Source: Rhodothermales bacterium
Lineage (GTDB): Bacteria; Bacteroidota; Rhodothermia; Rhodothermales; Bin80
Direction of reading: 5' to 3'
DNA length: 51,616 nucleotides
NCBI GenBank assembly: GCA_022821385.1
Contig: JAJEDR010000016.1
Location: forward strand, 1 to 51,616
Under the pieces are notes generated by a model. It saw only the letters and a list, made by a program, of their open reading frames with translations. It was not told where the DNA came from and did not search any database. This document shows, piece after piece, positions 13,271-29,525 of this stretch. The position numbers and the translations under genes are program-made. The first letter of the stretch is position 1. Each line of letters opens with the position of its first letter.

Positions 13271-16240
13271 TCACGCTTGCTTCAGGCGGTGGAGTGCTTT
13301 TTGGTTCTGTCCATGGACGGAGGGTTCATTGCACCAGAGCCAGCGCAATGTGTCTATGATTGCGGGAGCAGCCTCGTTGGCCAAGTTAAGCATCTCGAGA
13401 ACCGCGTGATCAATTTGATTTCGCACTTCATCTGCGTGGGCCTGACAAGCAGGAAGCAGAGGTTCCTTGGACAGACGGTCAAATACAACTGCGGCCTGTT
13501 CTAACTGACGTGCCGAGATCTGATCAAGCCTTGGACAGGGGATACTAGCCAATGCTTTTACCTGCGTCGTTGACCGCCCGCTCTGTGTTCGTTGGCCCTG
13601 TGTCCAGTGAACCAGGAAACCAAACGTAGAATTGGCCCACAGGGCAAAAGCCTTGAGCACATGCGGATCATCGTGCTGCAGTGAAGTCCATGCTCGTCCA
13701 CCCATGCCAAGATGGGTTGTTACGGCTGCTAGGAGTGTCTGAGAGGTCCAGCGCATATTTCGCGCATAGAACAGTGTACTGCGAGATGCACGCATCGCTT
13801 CCCGCTTCGCCTCCGAACCTATGCCAGGAGGAGACATCCCCTTATGGGTCAGCGGTACAAGAAGTTGCTTCTGTGTACTGCTGTCGGCTCGCCAGAGTGC
13901 ACGATCGGATCCTATGGCATCCACCGAATTGAACACCGGCACGAATTCAAAAGCACCACGCGGGTCTCTACCGGGCAAATGTCCTATCAAATCATGTGTT
14001 GGACCAACCTCGAAAAGTTCTCCAATAGAGCACATTGGCACATCAAGGGGGATGACATGACCATTAAAGTGGAGGACGCCTTCAAGGAGCGTATTTGCTG
14101 CTGCTACAAGGTCGGCATGTAAAACTCCCAGCGGGTTCCAGGGAGCGCCGTCTCCCCTCGTGGTGAACGCACACATCTGCCCTATCTCATCATTTCCTAC
14201 CCGGACCGCGTAGCTGCCCCCGGACTCCTGGGCTTTTCTGAGCGTAGAACGGATTGAACGGGCGACCTCACCGGCCTCTCCCGCCCGTAAAACAGGAGCC
14301 CGTAATGTCACACAGTGCACCGCTGCCGAAGGTGGCGTATCCGCATGATGATTCGCCGTACGTTTCGTTCCTACAAATAACATCTCCTCCATCCCCGTGT
14401 CAGCGGATAGCGCCCGCCGTCCCAAAGCCTTGCCGCTCGCCACTGCGATAACCACAATATCGGTGAACTCCCGCGTGATCATTTGCCGCGTCACTGCCCA
14501 CGATTCCGCAAACGCCGCAGACAGCGGCAGCACAAACCCAATCCGGCCGCCTGGTTTACATTTTTGGTGCGCCAGCACAAGAAAGGATGCCGCCAATCCC
14601 GCCTGATTGTTCACCGGCGCGTCCCGAACCAAAAGCTTCCAGCGCCGCTGGCATGCCGTGCGTTCAGCACGCGATAACCCCGCAATGTCAAATACACTCT
14701 GACCACCCCGTGTTCGCGAATACGGAGGATTCATCAGAATCCAATCCATCGAAATATCCGGTACACTGACCGAGTTCTCTTCACCATTGCCGTTACCCAT
14801 AGACCTGCCCGCACCTACGTTGAACAGATCCACCACCTGCTGCGCAGCAAAATATTCCAGCGATCCTGTCTGACCTTTCTCCCCGCCAACATTTACCCAG
14901 CCAATCTGGGTGTCTCCATACGGATCCCCATATCCCAATGCCGCCAGTGAGGAGGTCGTCAAATGGGCTGCAATCGGGCTTACATCGGCCCCGATCAAAC
15001 CGCCTTCCATCGCCGCCGCGTGTAGATGCCGCAGACTCTCCATGCTCCCGCCGGTCTGCTCGTGAATAGTGGCCACACGGTGGTACCCTGCACGCAGAAG
15101 TGTACCGGTTCCGCAGGCCAGATCACTCAGATACCGCTTCCTGAAAAGGTCTGGATCCGCCCACTCCTCCGCGGTTAGCATTGAAGGATCAATCGTCAGA
15201 TTCGCCAGCAGTTCGGCAGTGGCTGACTGGGTGTAGAACGCGGCGGCCGTTTTTCGATCCTCACTCAGCTTAGGAAACAGCTCCGCACCAATATTGATGT
15301 GAAGTCCCAACTGAGCGGTCTCAATCTCCATAACCGCTTCAATCAGCTTCCTGAGCATCCGGGAGGTACCCCCGGGATCAAACTTGCTTGCCAACTCAAA
15401 GACTTCAATCGCCGGCTCAAAAACAGAATTCCAGTTGTGTCGGTTAATGGTCCGCCAGACTTCAATCTGTGCAAGCACATTAGGTGCAGAACGTCCTGTA
15501 AAATCTATGAAAGGTGCACCCACAACACCCTGTGCGGCAAGTCGCTGCTGCGTTAAAAGGGCATTCAACCACAACACGACTGTGGTTCGTAAACCCTTTA
15601 GCGGTGAGCGTTGGTGCAGATGACCAGCAATCTGCTGCTGTCCTCCGTCTGGTAGCGTCGCTTCAAGTCCATTGGCCGCTGCTTCCACCAGCAGCGCCAC
15701 ACGGTCTCCGACAGATCTTACCTCCTCACGCGGCAGTCCCGCCGCAGACAGAAGTGTCGCAAGATCAAACACGTTACCCGTAATAAACCCGTCCTGCGGC
15801 CACCTCCGCTCATGGGTGCCTGTAATAGTGGTCTGGCCTCTACTCTCCAATAGCTGATGAACTGCATACGCAAGCGGTGCCCCCTCCAACAGCATATCCG
15901 CAATATTGAACCCATGCGCCTTGCGGAAACGCTGCGGAATATACAATGCAATAGCGGTGCCGATCCTGGCGCGGCGCATTCGGGTCTCAAGCCCCAGTCT
16001 TGCAACGGCATCCCGGTCCGCATCCAAGGCTCCAAATGAACTCTCTATCACGACCGGCGGGAAAATCCCGTCATCAATCAAAATGTCGGGACGCAGTCCA
16101 GAACCCTTGTCGGTATGCAGGAGCCGGGTCTCTTCGACTTTGATGCATTCCGGCTTCGCTGACCAACGAGCGCAGGCCTTTCGAAGCGCACGGCCAAGTG
16201 CCTGGTTGAAGGTTTCCTCTATGGTATGCCCATTTCCCAT
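13271..16240 (-). CDS. Solitary N6-adenine DNA methyltransferase with nuclease-like N-terminus
   Basis: A 989-residue class I methyltransferase that should transfer a methyl group from S-adenosylmethionine to adenine. Residues 333-348 (AAFYTQSATAELLANL) match the helical segment before the catalytic domain in type I/IIG enzymes. Motif I is DLACGTGTLL (373-382) and catalytic motif IV is NPPYSR (504-509). Both are intact, so it is probably active. Residues 51-70 (PDILIDDG...VVIESSFG) resemble the core of a PD-(D/E)XK nuclease, but the expected lysine after the Glu is Ser. The C-terminal third (SIGELFEVGPTHDLIG onward) likely serves target recognition. No helicase, specificity subunit or separate nuclease adjoins, so it appears to be an orphan or degenerate type IIG enzyme. 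A defence role cannot be claimed from context. Confidence 0.86.
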   Translation of the reverse strand: MGNGHTIEETFNQALGRALRKACARWSAKPECIKVEETRLLHTDKGSGLRPDILIDDGIFPPVVIESSFGALDADRDAVARLGLETRMRRARIGTAIALYIPQRFRKAHGFNIADMLLEGAPLAYAVHQLLESRGQTTITGTHERRWPQDGFITGNVFDLATLLSAAGLPREEVRSVGDRVALLVEAAANGLEATLPDGGQQQIAGHLHQRSPLKGLRTTVVLWLNALLTQQRLAAQGVVGAPFIDFTGRSAPNVLAQIEVWRTINRHNWNSVFEPAIEVFELASKFDPGGTSRMLRKLIEAVMEIETAQLGLHINIGAELFPKLSEDRKTAAAFYTQSATAELLANLTIDPSMLTAEEWADPDLFRKRYLSDLACGTGTLLRAGYHRVATIHEQTGGSMESLRHLHAAAMEGGLIGADVSPIAAHLTTSSLAALGYGDPYGDTQIGWVNVGGEKGQTGSLEYFAAQQVVDLFNVGAGRSMGNGNGEENSVSVPDISMDWILMNPPYSRTRGGQSVFDIAGLSRAERTACQRRWKLLVRDAPVNNQAGLAASFLVLAHQKCKPGGRIGFVLPLSAAFAESWAVTRQMITREFTDIVVIAVASGKALGRRALSADTGMEEMLFVGTKRTANHHADTPPSAAVHCVTLRAPVLRAGEAGEVARSIRSTLRKAQESGGSYAVRVGNDEIGQMCAFTTRGDGAPWNPLGVLHADLVAAANTLLEGVLHFNGHVIPLDVPMCSIGELFEVGPTHDLIGHLPGRDPRGAFEFVPVFNSVDAIGSDRALWRADSSTQKQLLVPLTHKGMSPPGIGSEAKREAMRASRSTLFYARNMRWTSQTLLAAVTTHLGMGGRAWTSLQHDDPHVLKAFALWANSTFGFLVHWTQGQRTQSGRSTTQVKALASIPCPRLDQISARQLEQAAVVFDRLSKEPLLPACQAHADEVRNQIDHAVLEMLNLANEAAPAIIDTLRWLWCNEPSVHGQNQKALHRLKQA

Positions 16241-16299: not shown

Positions 16300-16707
16300 T
16301 CATGTAATGGGATCTCTCATTGTTACATCCGGCAGGTTCCTCAGCACAGACTCCTCTCCCCCTGGAACATAGACGACAATCAGTTTGAGCACAGAGGATC
16401 CCGTATTCTCGGTTCCATGGTAGATGCCGCGCGGGACAAAGATGCAAGTGCCCGGGGTGATTTTGATCGGTTTTCGATCATCCAGCATTTGTGTGGCCTC
16501 TCCCTCCACTACATAAATAATCTCGTCAGCATTGGGGTGATTATGTCGTTCATGACCAGTGCCCGGCTGGACTTCAACAGATGCGAATGTCAATGCATTA
16601 GCGCCTGAGGTCTTCGGTTCGCTAAGCAAACAAATGTCCCCCCATGGAAAGGCCAGGGTCTGGACGCTTTCAGGTTGGGTTACAGTGCACTTGCCGATTT
16701 TTTCCAT
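16300..16707 (-). CDS. Single-domain cupin protein
   Basis: A 135-residue beta-barrel protein. Cupin motif 1 is GTGHERHNHPNADEIIYVVEGE, with the His-x-His and Glu metal ligands at about residues 56-63. Motif 2 is PRGIYHGTENTG, giving the last His near residue 95. All four ligands are present, so a divalent metal is likely bound. Such small cupins can be enzymes or sugar/small-molecule sensors; the reaction is not evident. Its start lies inside the end of the Tm-1-like gene (28-base overlap), so the two are translationally coupled and probably work on one substrate. Confidence 0.9.
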   Translation of the reverse strand: MEKIGKCTVTQPESVQTLAFPWGDICLLSEPKTSGANALTFASVEVQPGTGHERHNHPNADEIIYVVEGEATQMLDDRKPIKITPGTCIFVPRGIYHGTENTGSSVLKLIVVYVPGGEESVLRNLPDVTMRDPIT

Positions 16708-17918
16708 TGCAGATTGTGGATTAGTTCGTCCGAGATTGCATCCGCAAACTCGGGGTCGTTAATATGGAGATCATATTCCTTGACTGTCACAGAGGAATTA
16801 CAGTTTGCATGAAGTGATGCAAAAAGCGCTTTATTGGATTCGGGAGCGAAGAAAATCTCTTTTGGTGCATCCAGCATACTGACTCCCCTGAGTGGTATCA
16901 TCAGCGTAACCGGAGCCCGTGCGCGGCTGAGCCTAGTTCCTATCTCCTTTCCAATCTTAGCACATTCATCTGGACTGGTCCGCATCAGAGTGACGTTAGC
17001 ATTGTGGGGGTGAAGCGTTCGCTCTCTGAATGCTGCAGGCACAGTTTCAAGCGCCCAATAATTAACCATATCCAGTGCTCCGCAGGAAACCACCTGGGGT
17101 GTGCCAGCGACAATTGCAGCTTCCAGTCGTCGGGGACCGGCACTCAGCACACCGCCTACCACCTCATCGCACCATTCAGTGGTGGTGACATCCGCAACGC
17201 CTTCAAAAAATCCATCCGCAATAAGTTTTTCCATTGCCCGGCCACCACTACCTGTCGCATGAAAAACCACTACCTCAAACCCTGATTTCTCCAGACGCTC
17301 ACGCAATCGCGTGACACAAGGTGTGGTCACGCCAAACATTGTCGCCGCAATCAAGGGCCGCTCATCATCACGCTCTGGCATTTTATGCGCGGCCATACCA
17401 CAAACTGCATCAGCAGCATTCTTGATGATCACCCTGCTTATCCGATTCAATCCTGCTATATCCGCGACGGAGTACATCATAGCGATATCGCTCTCGCCCA
17501 TATAGGGCGCCACATCACCGGAAGCAAGTGTAGATACCATCACTTTGGGAAGTCCCACCGGGAGCGCCCGCATGACAGCCGTCCCTACTGCGGTCCCTCC
17601 AGAACCACCGAGTGCCAAAACGCCTGCCAATTGCGAGGACATATTCCTCGCCAGGTTCACGGCACCGCGTGTCAATGATTCCAAGGCATAGCTGCGACTA
17701 CCCCTTTCTCTCAGAGCTAGAATATCTTCGCCACCGGCCTTAGCAACCTCGCCTGCGGAAATGTCCGGCTCGTATTGCGGCTGCCCCATTACCCCCACAT
17801 CCATCAGAATGGGATGCAGGCCTCTCGACCGAATAATATCCCGTGCGTAAGCATATTCTTCTCCCTTGGTGTCCAAGGTGCCAACCAGCAGGATTCTTGG
17901 AGACTTGGAGTCCGTCAT
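16680..17918 (-). CDS. Tm-1-like ATP-binding protein (UPF0261)
   Basis: A 412-residue cytosolic protein of the family related to the N-terminal half of tomato Tm-1. It begins RILLVGTLDTKGEEYAYARD, a strong family signature, then MDVGVMGQP, VLALGGSGGTAVGTAVMRALP (glycine-rich, nucleotide-binding, about residues 100-120), KVMVSTLASGDVAPYMGESDI and VVVFHATGSGGRAMEKLI. The C-terminal half contains NAHVT-like HNANVTLMRT and the PLRGVSMLDAP loop. Members bind ATP; their reaction in bacteria is poorly defined, and the fold suggests phosphorylation or ligation of a small carbon substrate. The gene is first in a two-gene operon with the cupin, overlapping by 28 bases. Confidence 0.94.
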   Translation of the reverse strand: MTDSKSPRILLVGTLDTKGEEYAYARDIIRSRGLHPILMDVGVMGQPQYEPDISAGEVAKAGGEDILALRERGSRSYALESLTRGAVNLARNMSSQLAGVLALGGSGGTAVGTAVMRALPVGLPKVMVSTLASGDVAPYMGESDIAMMYSVADIAGLNRISRVIIKNAADAVCGMAAHKMPERDDERPLIAATMFGVTTPCVTRLRERLEKSGFEVVVFHATGSGGRAMEKLIADGFFEGVADVTTTEWCDEVVGGVLSAGPRRLEAAIVAGTPQVVSCGALDMVNYWALETVPAAFRERTLHPHNANVTLMRTSPDECAKIGKEIGTRLSRARAPVTLMIPLRGVSMLDAPKEIFFAPESNKALFASLHANCNSSVTVKEYDLHINDPEFADAISDELIHNLQWKKSASAL

Positions 17919-19035: not shown

Positions 19036-19929
19036 ATGCATCTCTATTTGGACTTGTTGCGGCATGTCATGACGAACGGGCATGAGCGCAGTGATCGCAC
19101 AGGAACTGGAACGGTCAGTGTTTTTGGATATCAGATGCGATTTCCACTGAAGGAGGGGTTTCCGATTTGTACAACTAAACGTGTTTGGTTTCGGGGGTTG
19201 GCGTGCGAATTGCTCTGGTTCCTGTCTGGTTCTACGAATATCAAGCCGCTGGTCGATCAGGGAATCTCAATCTGGACCGCATGGCCGCTGAAGTATTATC
19301 TCGAGTATCGTAAGCTTCCGGTTCCACCGTCGGACTCTGACGAATGGTCAGTGCGTCTTAAAGAGTTTGAAGAACGCATCCGCAAAGAAGAAGGGTTTGC
19401 CGAAAAATGGGGGGATTTGGGTCCTGTTTATGGCAAGCAGTGGCGTTCATTCTCCGGTGTAGACCAGATCGCATCTGTCATGGACTCCCTGCAACGAAAA
19501 CCTTGGAGTCGACGTCATATTGTGAGCGCATGGAATGCAAGAGAAATAGATCGGATGGCACTTCCTCCCTGTCATATGTTCTTCCAGCTTTCCGCCTCCG
19601 AGACCCGACTGTCTTGTCAGCTTTACATTCGATCAAACGATCTCTTCCTGGGAGCTCCGTTCAATATTGCTCAGTACGCGCTCTTAACCCATCTTATAGC
19701 GGAGCAGGCAGGCCTTGAACCAGGGGATTTAGTCTACACTATCGGAGATGCACACATTTATCTGAATCATCTTGATCAAGTAAGGCAGCAACTGAAGCGT
19801 GCTCCTTATCCACTGCCAACTTTGCATATCTTAAGGAAGCCGGCAACATTATTTGATTATGAGTACGCCGACTTCGAACTCAGTGACTATAAGTGTCATC
19901 CGGCCATCAAAGCTCCTGTGGCTGTTTAA
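19036..19929 (+). CDS. thyA: Thymidylate synthase
   Basis: Makes dTMP from dUMP using methylene-tetrahydrofolate, which is oxidised to dihydrofolate. The 297-residue protein starts [26 protein letters not shown], the family N-terminus. The catalytic cysteine is C179 in [10 protein letters not shown], with the RSND dUMP-binding loop ([10 protein letters not shown]) and GDAHIYLNH further on. It is about 30 residues longer than the E. coli enzyme because of an insert at roughly residues 85-125 (rich in E, R and K), as in many longer bacterial forms. It begins a four-gene operon ending in folA, which recycles its dihydrofolate product. Gaps downstream are short (27 bases to the amidase). Confidence 0.98.
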
Positions 19930-19956
19930 TTCTGTCATTGCGAATATTGACCAACG

Positions 19957-20955
19957 ATGAGATCGCGTAACCCCGGGAGTCAACGGCAGGCGTTACTTCG
20001 AGGTGTTTTTGAGGATAATCAGAAACTCGTTGGGCATACTGTCTCAAAACAAAGGAGAACAACAGTATGGTGGTCTATGGGTATATCGCTTCTGGTCATT
20101 GTGATTGCATTGATGGTCGGTGGTATAGAAGAAGACGGTACGGCTGAACCGGTAAGCTCTGTTGAACTACTTACATCTCCTGACCAGCGCGTACTTGCAT
20201 CTCAGGATGAATTTGTAGCGTCCGAGAGCACAACAGACATACCCTTGTCCCGTGTTTATGGTCTTGACGTGAGAACGATCGTACTTGATCCGGGGCATGG
20301 CGGACATGATCCCGGTGCCTCTGGACCGGTTGGCCTGCACGAAAAAACCGTTACACTTGATGTTGCCTTGCGTCTCGCAAGGCGACTGAAGTCTCAAGGC
20401 TATAATGTGGTTCTCACACGACGACAGGATGTTAGCGTGAGCCTCCGGAAAAGGGTCGAAGATGCACGGGCTCACGAGGCAGACCTTTTTGTGTCAATTC
20501 ATGTCAATTCAGTTCCTGTTGACACAGTGGCTTTTATTGAGACTTATTATTTCAGTCCGCGCGGAGATGCTCGCGCGGAGGCTTTGGCTCTTCGGGAGAA
20601 TTTCAATGCTGGCTATAGTGTTGCCCAGTGGCAAAACAGTCTTGAAGCACTAGGACAAACCGTGCGAGATGAAGACAGTCGCCGATTGGCCACGCACATT
20701 CAGAATGCGATGATTTCAACTATGCGCGAAATCAATCCTGGGATTCATGATTGGGGGACGAGATCTGGGCCTTTTACAGTGCTCCTGAACACGAAAGTGC
20801 CGGCAGTACTTGCTGAAATAACCGCAATTTCAATGCCGGAAGAAGAACAAAACTTGCTGGATGATGCTTACCGAGAGCAGTTGGCTATCGGTCTTGAATC
20901 CGGTATTATCTCTTATCTTTCCACAGAGGATAGTTCTATAACATTTGCTAATTAG
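19957..20955 (+). CDS. N-acetylmuramoyl-L-alanine amidase (Amidase_3), membrane-anchored
   Basis: Cleaves the bond between N-acetylmuramic acid and the stem peptide of peptidoglycan; relatives (AmiC type) split septal wall. The 332 residues begin with a basic cytosolic segment, one membrane helix at about 32-50 (SMGISLLVIVIALMVGG), a linker, and then the zinc amidase domain: VLDPGHGGHDPGASG (first zinc His), LHEKTVTLDVALRLA (Glu), SIHVNSVP (second zinc His) and a late PAVLAEITAISM with the catalytic Glu. The ligand set is complete. It is 5 bases from the actin-like gene, and the pairing of a wall hydrolase with a cytosolic filament hints at a morphogenetic unit. Confidence 0.95.
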   Translation: MRSRNPGSQRQALLRGVFEDNQKLVGHTVSKQRRTTVWWSMGISLLVIVIALMVGGIEEDGTAEPVSSVELLTSPDQRVLASQDEFVASESTTDIPLSRVYGLDVRTIVLDPGHGGHDPGASGPVGLHEKTVTLDVALRLARRLKSQGYNVVLTRRQDVSVSLRKRVEDARAHEADLFVSIHVNSVPVDTVAFIETYYFSPRGDARAEALALRENFNAGYSVAQWQNSLEALGQTVRDEDSRRLATHIQNAMISTMREINPGIHDWGTRSGPFTVLLNTKVPAVLAEITAISMPEEEQNLLDDAYREQLAIGLESGIISYLSTEDSSITFAN

Positions 20956-20960
20956 TTTAT

Positions 20961-21986
20961 ATGTCGCATCAATCTGAAACATCCAATAATATTCTGCGCG
21001 TCGGTATTGATCTGGGAACTTCACGAAGTGCCATTGCTGCTGATAATGGCAAGCGCAAGTGGATTCACAGCTATGTCGGCTGGCCCCGTGATTTTATCGC
21101 ACGCAAGTTGCTCAAGCGTGATGTGCTCGTTGGAACGGATGCCATTGAGCATCGGAATTCAGTCAACTTGGTTCGCCCTTTGGAGCACGGTGTAATCAGG
21201 GACGGAACAGCCAAAGACGAAAAGGCTGTTCGTGAACTGATTCGGCATTTGATATCGCTAGCAGAACCAGAGGATGGGCAGAAAATTTATGCTGCCGTTG
21301 GCGTGCCGGCAGAGGCTCTGCGGGTCAATAAGCTCGCAATACGCAATGCTGTGGGTGAATGGGCGGACACTCTGATGCTGGTATCGGAACCGTTTGCGGT
21401 GGCATATAGACTCGGTGCGCTCAATAACGCCTGTATCGTTGACATTGGCGCAGGTACGATTGATTTCTGTGTCATGCATGGCACGATGCCGAGTGATGAG
21501 GATCAGCGCTCAATGCGCGCCGCGGGGGATCATATAGATCAGCAGCTTTACGACCTGTTGTCGGAGCGCTTCGTCAACACACCTATAAGTGAGACTATGG
21601 TGCGTGAATTGAAGGAGAAGCACGCCTCTGTTTCTGGTGCAAGTGAACCCGTAAGGGTCAAACTGCCGATTGCCGGCAAATTTCAGTTACATGACATCAC
21701 CAAAGAGATTTGCCGGGCCTGTGATTCTTTGATACCGGGTATTGCAGAGACCATCATTGATCTACTGAGTACGTACGAACCGATGCTCCAGGAGCGGATC
21801 CGGAACAGTATCTATTTAGCAGGCGGTGGAAGCCAAATTCGTGGCATAACTGAAGCCCTCGCTACTGCCCTGGAGGAGTATGGGCATTTCACGATCACAC
21901 CCATTGAAGATCCGCTGTTCAGTGGTGCCGAAGGGGCCCTGAGTCTGGCGGAAGACATGCCTGAAGAATATTGGGAAAACATGTAA
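20961..21986 (+). CDS. MamK-like actin-family ATPase
   Basis: A 341-residue actin/Hsp70-fold protein that should polymerise with ATP. Phosphate-1 loop is VGIDLGTSRSAIAAD (about residues 14-28), phosphate-2 is IVDIGAGTIDFCVMHGT, and the adenosine motif is YLAGGGSQIRGI. Several segments match MamK, the magnetosome filament protein, better than MreB as I recall these families: VGWPRDFIARKLL, VRPLEHGVI, LVSEPFAVAYRLGALNN, MPSDEDQRSMRAAGDHID and the C-terminal GALSLAEDMPEEYWENM. MreB's membrane-binding N-terminal helix is not evident. No magnetosome genes are in the window. It lies directly after the amidase and 11 bases before folA. It could organise cell shape, division or an intracellular compartment. 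Confidence 0.88.
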   Translation: MSHQSETSNNILRVGIDLGTSRSAIAADNGKRKWIHSYVGWPRDFIARKLLKRDVLVGTDAIEHRNSVNLVRPLEHGVIRDGTAKDEKAVRELIRHLISLAEPEDGQKIYAAVGVPAEALRVNKLAIRNAVGEWADTLMLVSEPFAVAYRLGALNNACIVDIGAGTIDFCVMHGTMPSDEDQRSMRAAGDHIDQQLYDLLSERFVNTPISETMVRELKEKHASVSGASEPVRVKLPIAGKFQLHDITKEICRACDSLIPGIAETIIDLLSTYEPMLQERIRNSIYLAGGGSQIRGITEALATALEEYGHFTITPIEDPLFSGAEGALSLAEDMPEEYWENM

Positions 21987-21997
21987 GACGTCCTCTT

Positions 21998-22501
21998 GTG
22001 ATCATCATTGCCGCACTGGCACGTGAGAATCGCTGTATCGGTCGCAATCTGCGCCTCCCTTGGCATATCTCGGAAGATATGCAGCGCTTTAAGCGACTGA
22101 CGAGTGGTTTCCCGATGATCATGGGACGCCTGACCTGCGAAGGGCTCGTACGTGACTTTGGTGGGCCGCTGCCGAACAGGCGTATGCTTGTACTGACAAG
22201 CAACCCTAACAAAAAAATCCATCCATCCATTGAATCATTTGATTCATTGGAGTCTGCGTTGAAGGGCGTAGAATCTGCCGATCAGGTGTTTATTGCCGGC
22301 GGTGCCAGAGTTTATGAAGAGGGGATTCCCATAGCAGATCGACTTGAGCTAACGCTGATTGACCGCTTCTACGAAGGAGATACTTTTTTTCCGCCTTACG
22401 AGCATCTCATCGGGAAAGAGTTCGCGCTCGTAAAAGAGCGTCCACATGAAGGATTCACTTTCGCCACCTACGACAGGATCCGCCCCTCAAAGGATTATTA
22501 A
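21998..22501 (+). CDS. folA: Dihydrofolate reductase
   Basis: Reduces dihydrofolate to tetrahydrofolate with NADPH. From GTG at 21998 the protein (167 residues) reads VIIIAALARENRCIGRNLRLPWHISEDM, the classic start with the substrate-binding LPW and acidic residue. FKRLTSGFPMIMGRLT and VFIAGGARVYEEGI (NADPH binding) follow, and ELTLIDRFYEGDTFFP gives the C-terminal region. A TTG at 21971 would overlap the actin gene and add nine unconserved residues, so GTG is preferred. As last gene in the thyA operon it completes the dTMP/folate cycle. Its 3' end faces bshA. Confidence 0.96.
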   Translation: MIIIAALARENRCIGRNLRLPWHISEDMQRFKRLTSGFPMIMGRLTCEGLVRDFGGPLPNRRMLVLTSNPNKKIHPSIESFDSLESALKGVESADQVFIAGGARVYEEGIPIADRLELTLIDRFYEGDTFFPPYEHLIGKEFALVKERPHEGFTFATYDRIRPSKDY

Positions 22502-26342: not shown

Positions 26343-27560
26343 CTAAGAAGGCAACGTGAGGCGATGTATCTGGACGGTTTGGACCCCAAGTTCGGACTCG
26401 TGAAGCAGGAGCACATAGTCAGCTCCGAATTCCTGAACATAACTAGGGGTCTGGGCCATGTGACAAAAGAAATTGCCGTCCGCACCGAAGGCTAGCCATC
26501 CACGATCTTCCCGGGGCCGGTCGTATTGGCGGACCCAGATGCGGCCGTCACGACCGATCCTGACACTGGACATAACTGGGAAAACGTCAGCAACCGGACG
26601 TTCTCGGCTAAGCATGTACCGAGCAGGGCTACGGAGCGTCCGGTAATCCTCGCGCCAGGCACGTATGTCGGCACGCGTAACCTCACGGTTCGGTTCTGGC
26701 CATCGGATGGTCATCTGTAAGTTGAATTCATCGTCTAGAACCTGTATCTCGGGTTTGCTTCCATGTGCCAGCACGATGGTTGATCCCAGCGCGTCAACTT
26801 CGGCGTTTGCTTCAAAGAGCGGGTACAAATAGAGGTTCTCGGGGGCTTCACTGACCGTGCCATAGGTTATGTGGGGAATCTGGGCGAGGTGGCCGACAAG
26901 TTTCCCGTCGGGATTGTGGATTTCCACCACCATCGTGTGTGGAACGTCAAAGCCCGGGGTGTACATCCCTACCTCTCTGGCGTTCACGGTGTACCCGTTT
27001 TCGAGCACGCCCCCAGCCCTTGAACGGTTTTGGTACACCGGATCAAGCAGGATCCTCCGCACGAATTGGCCTTGGGCCGTGAATACAGTGTAGCTCCAAG
27101 GCCGGTAATTTCCCACCCAAAGCGTGTCACCTGCCGTAATCCACAGGGAAGTGGGATTGGTGAACTCACCGGGGCCTTCGCCGCGTTGGCCCATTGATCG
27201 CAGGTGACGCCCTGACGCGTCGAAAACACGAACTTCATAAAGGTCGTTATCAACCACCGCTATGGATCCATCTGACAGACGTCCCGCTCCCCAGATATAA
27301 GAGAACCATTGGTTGTCGTCTTCCTCGTCATCACCGATGACCAAGACGGGTTCTTCACTGAATGTGCATGTCGCCTCCGAACTTGCGGGGATGCTGGTTA
27401 CGATCTGCGCGTTGGAGCTGTCAATGGTCAGGGGTTCAGATAGTGCTTGCCGGGAGCTGTTAACATTCCAGGTTTCGGATGGTGCTTTTTGGGAGCAGGC
27501 ACCGAGGGACAAGGCAAGTGCGACCACAAGGCTTTGTAGACACTGATTAAGTGTAATCAT
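26343..27560 (-). CDS. Beta-propeller lipoprotein, array copy A
   Basis: First (leftmost) of three tandem paralogues, 405 residues. Lipoprotein signal MITLNQCLQSLVVALALSLGAC with lipobox LGAC (Cys22), so membrane-anchored outside the cytoplasm. The propeller begins GRLSDGSIAVVD, EVRVFDASGRHLRSMGQRGEGPGEFTNP, then GDTLWVGN and VFTAQGQFVRRIL, all blade strands of the six-bladed (NHL-like) type. A very conserved stretch near residues 320-365 (ERPVADVFP, GRDGRIWVRQYDRPREDRGW) is shared with copies B and C. Start ATG at 27560 is chosen because it gives the lipoprotein signal; the frame is open for 27 more codons upstream. Copy A lacks the SSSDW insert of B and C near residue 315. Substrate unknown. 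Confidence 0.88.
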   Translation of the reverse strand: MITLNQCLQSLVVALALSLGACSQKAPSETWNVNSSRQALSEPLTIDSSNAQIVTSIPASSEATCTFSEEPVLVIGDDEEDDNQWFSYIWGAGRLSDGSIAVVDNDLYEVRVFDASGRHLRSMGQRGEGPGEFTNPTSLWITAGDTLWVGNYRPWSYTVFTAQGQFVRRILLDPVYQNRSRAGGVLENGYTVNAREVGMYTPGFDVPHTMVVEIHNPDGKLVGHLAQIPHITYGTVSEAPENLYLYPLFEANAEVDALGSTIVLAHGSKPEIQVLDDEFNLQMTIRWPEPNREVTRADIRAWREDYRTLRSPARYMLSRERPVADVFPVMSSVRIGRDGRIWVRQYDRPREDRGWLAFGADGNFFCHMAQTPSYVQEFGADYVLLLHESELGVQTVQIHRLTLPS

Positions 27561-27600
27561 TCTCGCTATCTCGTGTTGGACGAGGATACGGGGGTGTCTG

Positions 27601-27630
27601 ACGACCGCCGAGTGTACAGTCGGTGGTCGT
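27601..27630. repeat. Inverted repeat in leader of array copy A
   Basis: ACGACCGCCGA (27601-27611) and TCGGTGGTCGT (27620-27630) pair at 10 of 11 positions around an 8-base loop. It lies 41 bases upstream of the copy A start. Copy B keeps only the first arm, so the hairpin is not conserved. Confidence 0.6.
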
Positions 27631-27654
27631 ATAAGATTCACCGTGGAAAGTTTA

Positions 27655-27742
27655 CCTGCATTGAAGCGGACTGAACCACAGCGCAGATCTGGTTGACAAA
27701 TAGCAGACTACGCCGCCCTAGTAGGATATGTCTGCAAAATGT
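27655..27742. repeat. Leader repeat, copy A
   Basis: Segment upstream of array copy A starting CCTGCATTGAAGCGG and running to TCTGCAAAATGT. It matches 29621-29709 and, more weakly, 33513-33603. Confidence 0.65.
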
Positions 27743-28310
27743 CGCATGTTTTGTGGTGTGCGACACGTGTGTGCGGAACTGCGTTTTCCAAACGAATTGT
27801 CATCGGACGGTTCAAGTCTATCAGCTGTGGCACATCTATCAGGATAGAAAAACTTTGATTTGCCGAGAGAAACAGGGTCCGTCATGAAAGAAGTAGCTAA
27901 TCCCGATGTTATTGCCATCTGCGGAAAAGATTTCAATCGTCGCCGTAAAATGTTTTCAAGATGCAGTTTTCACGCCAACAAACAAAGCTAGGCTTTGATT
28001 GCATTGCTGGATAAGTTACCATTAAGTACTTATGGACTAATTGAGGAACCACCGTTAGAGCAAAGGCGCAAGATTCGCATGGGGCGTGTGCATGAGATAG
28101 AGACCTGATCTCATAAACACTCCGTGAGTCTGCTGCCTTGGAAAGGACTAAACGAGCGTCTGCAACCAACCGCGCTTCGGCATCTGTGGAGACGCCCCTC
28201 TACTTCTCCGTCCTGCTACATAGAAGATGGGAGCTGACCCACGCAGGTTGCTGCTACGAAGAATACCTTAGACAAGGCTGGGTCCGCAATGTCTGTACTT
28301 CATACGCAGG

Positions 28311-29525
28311 CTAAGAAGGTAACGTGAGACGATGCATCCGGACGGTTTGGACCCCAAGTTCGGACCGATGAAGCAGGAGCACATAGTCGGCTCCGAATTC
28401 CCAAACGCTGCCGGGGGTCTGGGCCATGTGACAAAAGAACTTGCCTTCAGCATCGAAGGCGAGCCATCCACGATCTTCCCGGGGCCGGTCGTATTGGCGA
28501 ACCCAGATGCGGCCGTCACGACCAATCTTAACACTGGACATGGCCGGGAAAACGTCGGCCACTGGCCGTTCCGGGCTAATCCTGTCATCATCATTCTGAT
28601 CCCAGTCCGAAGAACTATAGCGCTCCCGGTAATCCTCGCGATAGGCACGTACGTCCTCGCGCGTAACCTCGCGGTCCGCTTCTGACCAGCGGACGATCAT
28701 TCGCAAGTTGAATTCATCGTCCAGAACCTGTACCTCGGGTTTGCTCCCGTGTGCCAGCACGATGGTTGAACCCAGCGCGTCAACTACGGCTCTTGCTTCG
28801 AAGAGTGGGGAAAAAGCAATGGACTCGGGGGAATCACTGACCTTGCCAAAGGTTCTGTGGGGAATCCGGGCAAGGATGTTGGCAAGTTTCCCGTCGGGAT
28901 TGTGGATCTCCACTATCGCCGTGTCAGGAACGTCAAATTCCGGGGTAAGGATTCCTAACCCTTCCCATCTGACGTTCACGGTGTACTCGTTTTCGAGCAC
29001 GCCTCCAGCTCTTGACGGGTCCGAATACACCGGATCGAGCCTGATCCTTCGAACGAATTGGCCTTGGGATGTGAATACAGTGTAGCTCCAAGGTCGGGTG
29101 TTTCCCACCCAAAGCGTGTCTCCTGCCGTGATCCACAGAATAAAGGGATCAGTGAACTCGCCGGGACCTTCGCCGCGCTGGCCCATCGATCGTAGGTGAC
29201 GCCCCGACGCATCGAATATGCGAACCTCAGCAGACGTGCGATCAACCACCGCAATGGATCCATCCGAAAGACGTCCCGTTCCCCGGATAGAAGTGAAAAA
29301 TTGGTTGTCGTCTTCCTCGTCATCGCCGACGACAAAAGCGGGTTCCTCACTGAATGTACATGTCGCTTCCGAACTTGCGGGGGTGCTGGTTACGATCTGC
29401 GCGCTGGAACTGTCGATGGAGATGTCGGCGGCCCCAGGGTCAACTGATGCTTGCTGGGAGCATGCACCGAGGAGCAAGGCAAGTGCGACCACAAGGCTTC
29501 CAAGGCGCTGTTTGGGTGTAATCAT
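28311..29525 (-). CDS. Beta-propeller lipoprotein, array copy B
   Basis: Second paralogue, 404 residues, signal MITPKQRLGSLVVALALLLGAC (Cys22) then SQQ. The protein is the closest match to copies A and C: GRLSDGSIAVVDRTSAEVRIFD, RSMGQRGEGPGEFTDPFILW, GDTLWVGNTRPW and the late GRDGRIWVRQYDRPREDRGW block. It differs from A by an insert (SSSDWDQNDDDRISPE) that C also has. Codons are like those of its siblings, so these are recent duplicates. It is separated from A by 750 bases and from the phosphoesterase by 863 bases, both mostly repeat flank. Possibly these lipoproteins vary in what they bind; nothing shows the ligand. Confidence 0.88.
   Translation of the reverse strand: MITPKQRLGSLVVALALLLGACSQQASVDPGAADISIDSSSAQIVTSTPASSEATCTFSEEPAFVVGDDEEDDNQFFTSIRGTGRLSDGSIAVVDRTSAEVRIFDASGRHLRSMGQRGEGPGEFTDPFILWITAGDTLWVGNTRPWSYTVFTSQGQFVRRIRLDPVYSDPSRAGGVLENEYTVNVRWEGLGILTPEFDVPDTAIVEIHNPDGKLANILARIPHRTFGKVSDSPESIAFSPLFEARAVVDALGSTIVLAHGSKPEVQVLDDEFNLRMIVRWSEADREVTREDVRAYREDYRERYSSSDWDQNDDDRISPERPVADVFPAMSSVKIGRDGRIWVRQYDRPREDRGWLAFDAEGKFFCHMAQTPGSVWEFGADYVLLLHRSELGVQTVRMHRLTLPS

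Follow-up and report, generated by a model that had tools for sequence, protein, structure and literature searches.

A MamK-family actin encoded directly downstream of a predicted membrane-anchored amidase: a two-gene unit conserved in Rhodothermales and other phyla

What might a MamK-like actin do where no magnetosome gene lies near it, and with which of its neighbors does it work? This question is raised by a 51,616-nucleotide stretch of a Rhodothermales genome (contig JAJEDR010000016.1 of assembly GCA_022821385.1, hereafter the window), in which thyA, a peptidoglycan amidase gene, an actin gene and folA follow one another on the plus strand. The window lies on contig 42 of a 3.39-Mb genome that is 98% complete, whose closest relatives with a name are metagenome-assembled genomes of Rhodothermales/Rhodothermaceae. 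An earlier sequence-only reading had described the actin as MamK-like and had proposed that the four genes together link the supply of DNA precursors with cell shape or division. Here we report that the conserved unit is the amidase and the actin, and that its best explanation, which we consider probable, is a two-gene wall-remodeling module in which the amidase is docked on an actin filament.

We determined which genes belong together by clustering every neighboring open reading frame over 81 loci. In the window, the amidase gene (19957-20955; Pfam Amidase_3, 9.5e-46) ends 5 bases before the actin gene (20961-21986; 341 amino acids), and an amidase gene lies directly upstream of the actin gene on the same strand in all 23 orthologous Rhodothermales loci. 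Furthermore, the amidase was immediately upstream of the actin in 80 of 80 named loci from ~10 phyla, which were the best of at least 453 relatives found when 84,980 species genomes were scanned. Note that likeness to the Rhodothermales actin was the criterion for choosing these loci, and the pairing therefore holds for that actin clade and not for all MamK relatives. The phyla were recorded as Rhodothermota/Bacteroidota, Thermodesulfobacteriota, Nitrospirota, Pseudomonadota, Acidobacteriota, Myxococcota, Gemmatimonadota, Rokuibacteriota, Binatota, Schekmaniibacteriota and Aminicenantes. The amidase and the actin alone were common to all 81 loci, with thyA present at 11, folA at 9, bshA at 9 and the EF-G gene at 5, indicating that the conserved unit is these two genes. 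The suggested pairing of a filament with a wall hydrolase was thus borne out well beyond the window.

The proposed coupling to DNA precursor supply fared differently. The order thyA-amidase-actin-folA is indeed present in close relatives, being kept by the genus of the window and by genera related to it. However, flanking of the pair by thyA and folA is restricted to the family of the window, plus one near case in another family, and the surroundings are unrelated in other families and phyla; other Rhodothermales carry EF-G upstream of the pair and, at one inspected locus, the DNA polymerase III delta' gene downstream. With only the amidase and the actin universal, the link to dTMP synthesis found no footing, and we regard a four-gene coupling of this kind as very improbable. 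The trees of the amidase and the actin correspond to each other (mirror-tree r = 0.905) and have cross-phylum groupings in common, indicating that the pair was inherited or transferred together. We are highly confident that the amidase and the actin act together.

We then asked what kind of actin this is. The MamK-like sequence blocks noted earlier were all present. AMB-1 MamK (PDB 5ljw) aligned to residues 7-340 of the window actin at 1.6e-72 and was the best match among solved structures, whereas Thermotoga MreB reached 2.3e-12 only, and the model of an orthologue was closest in fold to the MamK filament subunit (TM-score 0.95). The Pfam family MreB_Mbl matched at 4.2e-22. With the NCBIfam MamK model NF040964, the window actin scored 393 bits against a cut-off of 400, and its orthologues and other amidase-linked actins scored 397-436 bits, many of them over that cut-off. 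The ATPase residues E143 and D161 were kept in 63 of 63 aligned actins. In trees of 69 and 66 rows, the window actin grouped with MamK and not with MreB, the MreB outgroup being supported at 100/100. Orthologues with 57-93% identity were found in 24 of 59 genomes searched together with its own genome, and among 394 genomes sampled from the phylum, only those of Rhodothermales had members of the family.

Three other identities were tried and rejected. An assignment to MreB failed on family score (81 bits against the PRK13927 cut-off of 293) and on a tree position outside the MreB clade, and one to FtsA failed on 27 bits against the TIGR01174 cut-off of 176; the protein groups in neither the MreB nor the FtsA clade, either of which would have counted against the earlier reading. 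BeeR was likewise rejected (199 bits on NF053558, for which the cut-off is 530), and 11 residues precede the first strand in the window actin, with no N-terminal extension of 30-50 residues. Note that the window's genome has four MreB_Mbl matches in total, among them a canonical MreB on another contig with 426 bits on PF06723.

The protein also differs from magnetosomal MamK. As had been stated, no magnetosome gene was found in the window, and MamM was not found in the genome (the top match reached 34 bits, the cut-off being 350); in both checked reference loci (L186 and L195), MamM adjoins the actin. In the more careful tree, magnetosomal and allied MamKs formed one clade at 99/85 that excluded all amidase-linked actins, and at least 13 diagnostic positions divide the two groups, including W41 in amidase-linked actins vs Y in magnetosomal MamKs, R72 vs mostly Y, E118 vs R and D190 vs N. 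Given the missing magnetosome context, the separate clade and these residues, the protein is, as far as its sequence can tell, a MamK-family actin but not a magnetosomal MamK. The same observations bear on the idea that the locus is a remnant or fragment of a magnetosome gene cluster. Membership of the same actin family would fit that idea, but the absence of MamM, the amidase linkage, the differing residues, the separate magnetosomal clade and the presence of these actins throughout non-magnetotactic lineages make it extremely improbable. Support for the amidase-linked actins as a clade of their own was 31/0 in the careful tree and 82 in a quick tree, and they may be the sister clade of the magnetosomal clade or the stem behind it.

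MamK-family actins also occur in other settings. NF040964 matched in 52 of 398 sampled Pseudomonadota genomes, and the loci examined there have no upstream amidase. Several Desulfobacterota loci (L216, L219-L220, L226 and L228-L231) carry two MamK-family actins side by side without an amidase, and these are probably magnetosome clusters with a duplicated MamK. Further Desulfobacterota actins without an amidase (L217-L218, L221-L222 and L225) were placed by the tree on the magnetosomal side; their upstream genes include a FeoB-like gene at L217 and genes for coiled-coil-like proteins at L221 and L225, and these actins could be of the Bbp (see below) or Mad type.

The partner of the window actin is predicted to consist of a cytoplasmic N-terminal tail, one transmembrane helix and a periplasmic domain. 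The helix, WSMGISLLVIVIALMVGGI (amidase residues 39-57; 20071-20127), was located by a hydropathy scan with a mean of 2.31 over 19 residues, the median across the amidase set being 2.1. The Amidase_3 catalytic domain spans residues 108-318 (20278-20910). Both the nearest solved structure and the nearest fold were those of E. coli AmiA. Across 55 aligned amidases, zinc ligands H114, E129 and H182 and the catalytic E287 (numbered as in the orthologue at L039) were invariant. Where AmiA and AmiC have their autoinhibitory segment, the window amidase has an insertion of ~42 residues (approximately 20551-20676), which is colinear with AmiA (8c2o) and skipped in a minimal amidase (4rn7). In AmiA, AmiB and AmiC, this insertion carries the autoinhibitory helix; by analogy, the insertion here is probably autoinhibitory too, so that the amidase would itself be autoinhibited.

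Such an architecture could also be read in the opposite direction, namely that the amidase mainly anchors the filament to the envelope while the filament serves a client elsewhere, such as an organelle, the pole or the chromosome. A protein running from a cytoplasmic tail through the membrane to the wall would suit anchoring, and no further conserved neighbor shows which process is served. There is also a precedent, since magnetosomal MamK positions cargo and requires the membrane partners MamJ and MamY (PMC10653835). However, a mere anchor has no need of the four catalytic residues that are invariant in these amidases, and no cargo gene is conserved nearby. We therefore consider this reversed reading unlikely, and prefer the one in which the filament acts on the amidase.

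The N-terminal tail offers a candidate point of contact with the filament. The first ~100 residues of the amidase are strongly divergent, with the linker, the membrane helix and the periplasmic stalk all varying, save for a motif of ~17 residues. In the window, this motif is RQALLRGVFEDNQKLVG (residues 10-26; 19984-20034), which we regard as a candidate actin-docking helix; in an orthologue, a helix is predicted at the corresponding position. A profile built from 81 sequences (78 complete ones of the first set and three added from Acidobacteriota) reads [KR]-x-x-[ILM]-L-[RKQ]-x-[VA]-[YVF]-x-[ED]-N-[LV], with an invariant N. Its short form, [KR]xx[IL]LRxVYxxN, was present in all 78 amidases with a complete 5' end. 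The motif was found in all 22 scorable Rhodothermales loci, and two chance matches were seen in 38 amidases without an actin partner. A stricter pattern had a single match in the six frames of the window, which was in the amidase, and none at 46 loci of MamK relatives without an amidase; at L224, both an amidase and the motif were present. Two loci, L049 and L082 (Roseithermus sacchariphilus), have two tandem copies of the motif in one amidase. The motif lies a median of 17 residues before the transmembrane helix, with a basic linker between them (median net charge +5), and this arrangement of motif and basic linker before a hydrophobic helix predicts that the motif is cytoplasmic.

We next looked at whether the motif follows the actin. 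In Acidobacteriota, where the search was started from the amidase, a MamK-clade actin adjoined 11 of 11 motif-bearing and 0 of 19 motif-less amidases (Fisher p = 1.8e-8, kinship ignored). Where a Rhodothermales genome lacks the actin, its best amidases were of other, exported types without the motif. Moreover, a sister genome from the window's own family (G012) keeps the order amidase-folA-bshA with the actin cleanly missing, and its amidase (L233, 4975-5910) has lost the motif. In this amidase the insertion at the autoinhibitory place is also ~15 residues shorter, hinting that the insertion, too, is tied to the actin. The retention of folA in G012 after loss of the actin is a further point against the coupling to precursor supply.

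From these results we propose the following mechanism. The actin would form MamK-type filaments in the cytoplasm, and the amidase would be an inner-membrane protein whose active domain lies in the periplasm. The short amphipathic helix of the amidase would dock on the actin from the cytoplasmic side, and the filament would thereby decide where, and possibly when, the AmiA-type amidase cuts peptidoglycan, whether by placing, clustering or gating it. Judged from conservation of the motif and its occurrence with the actin, direct docking via the motif is probable. Septal splitting and daughter-cell separation are the usual job of AmiA, AmiB and AmiC amidases, and by analogy with these a septal role for the module may be suggested, tentatively and as something short of probable.

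Docking was also approached by structure prediction. The amidase and actin of L039 were joined by translating the amidase stop codon as an amino acid and modeled with AlphaFold on 99 rows, with the amidase alone as a control. The motif formed a helix both joined and alone. The predicted local distance difference test (pLDDT) values for residues 11-30 were 76/65 in the joined chain vs 87/78 in the amidase alone; the helix was no better defined in the joined chain, so that the prediction gives docking no support either way. Several points weigh against the proposed module. Besides these lower values, the joint loss of actin and motif is a single case, actins outside the amidase-linked clade have no amidase, and the motif could bind another target, for example lipid or another protein. 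In a rival reading, the two genes are only co-expressed for one process, their products do not touch, and the motif binds a different partner or the membrane surface. The lack of any sign of docking in the AlphaFold comparison and the basic, amphipathic character of the motif, which could lie on a membrane, would both accord with this. However, the motif was seen only alongside the actin in Acidobacteriota and was lost with it in G012, and its invariant N and fixed spacing exceed the needs of a membrane-surface helix. We thus judge co-expression without contact to be improbable, on a par with the anchoring role, and retain the filament-docked amidase as the preferred explanation.

If this explanation is true, it has consequences for how wall cleavage is placed. 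The control of E. coli amidases has been explained from the periplasmic side, by FtsEX-EnvC and NlpD. The docked amidase would add a second, cytoskeletal route, present in many phyla and not dependent on MreB or FtsA, and the conserved pair suggests that, in many bacteria, an actin filament directs wall cutting from the cell interior. MamK would also gain a function outside the magnetosome and a candidate origin. In its broadest form, the proposal is a widespread undescribed system in which a MamK-clade filament directly positions an amidase across the membrane and whose actin stock later yielded magnetosomal MamK; we put this form forward as a serious possibility that falls somewhat below a likely one. 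The module is small, comprising two genes and one 17-residue motif, and is hence directly testable.

The remaining genes of the window lie outside the conserved unit. The upstream neighbor thyA (19036-19929; Pfam Thymidylat_synt, 1.7e-108) and the downstream neighbor folA (21998-22501; Pfam DHFR_1, 7.5e-40) are lineage-specific, and bshA follows folA on the minus strand. The gene coordinates and spacings given earlier were reproduced; the actin-folA spacing is 11 bases given the proposed GTG start of folA at 21998, and with an alternative upstream start, TTG at 21971, folA and the actin gene would overlap. Farther away, the minus strand encodes a UPF0261 (Tm-1-like) protein and then a small cupin protein (16300-17918), whose genes overlap by 28 bases and also stand beside the locus in some relatives. 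A 989-amino-acid protein (13271-16240, minus strand) has the DNA methyltransferase motifs TGTLLRAGYHR and MNPPYSR and no matching Pfam model, and is possibly a restriction-modification or defense enzyme. Two neighboring 6-bladed beta-propeller proteins (DUF5128) are encoded at 26343-29525 on the minus strand.

Finally, we compared the pair with known systems. No relevant description of MamK together with an amidase was found in the open-access literature, which is weak evidence of absence, and the two-gene amidase-actin system is apparently undescribed. BeeR is an actin of Verrucomicrobiota that forms three-stranded tubes (PDB 8r2n) and has an N-terminal extension of 30-50 residues as its hallmark (PMC11929497). 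Like the window actin, it is a MamK-related actin in bacteria without magnetosomes, but no amidase partner is mentioned for it (PMC11929497). Bbp, the 'big bacteria protein' of giant bacteria, is by its description likewise of MamK-like fold in non-magnetotactic hosts, belonging to Desulfobacterota and Gammaproteobacteria; the neighbors reported for it are a Kelch protein and a hypothetical one, with no amidase mentioned (PMC10580974), whereas actins of the window type neighbor an amidase. With MamK itself (NF040964; PDB 5ljv, 5ljw and 5jyg), the window actin shares a full-length alignment, the ATPase residues and a DMPEEYW-like C-terminal end, but actins of this type stand without magnetosome genes and always with an amidase partner.

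On the amidase side, AmiA, AmiB and AmiC of E. coli are exported, soluble enzymes. The window amidase shares their Amidase_3 fold, zinc-site residues and insertion at the autoinhibitory segment, but it is predicted to be membrane-anchored, the signal peptide or AMIN domain being replaced by a conserved cytoplasmic motif, a basic linker and a hydrophobic helix, and it has an actin partner. RodZ and FtsN connect bacterial actins to wall enzymes, and MreB-RodZ and FtsA-FtsN are alike in outline to the module proposed here, in that a single-pass membrane protein binds an actin homologue through its cytoplasmic tail and acts on the wall outside. They differ in acting on wall synthesis or septal activation, whereas in the window the membrane protein would itself be the hydrolase.

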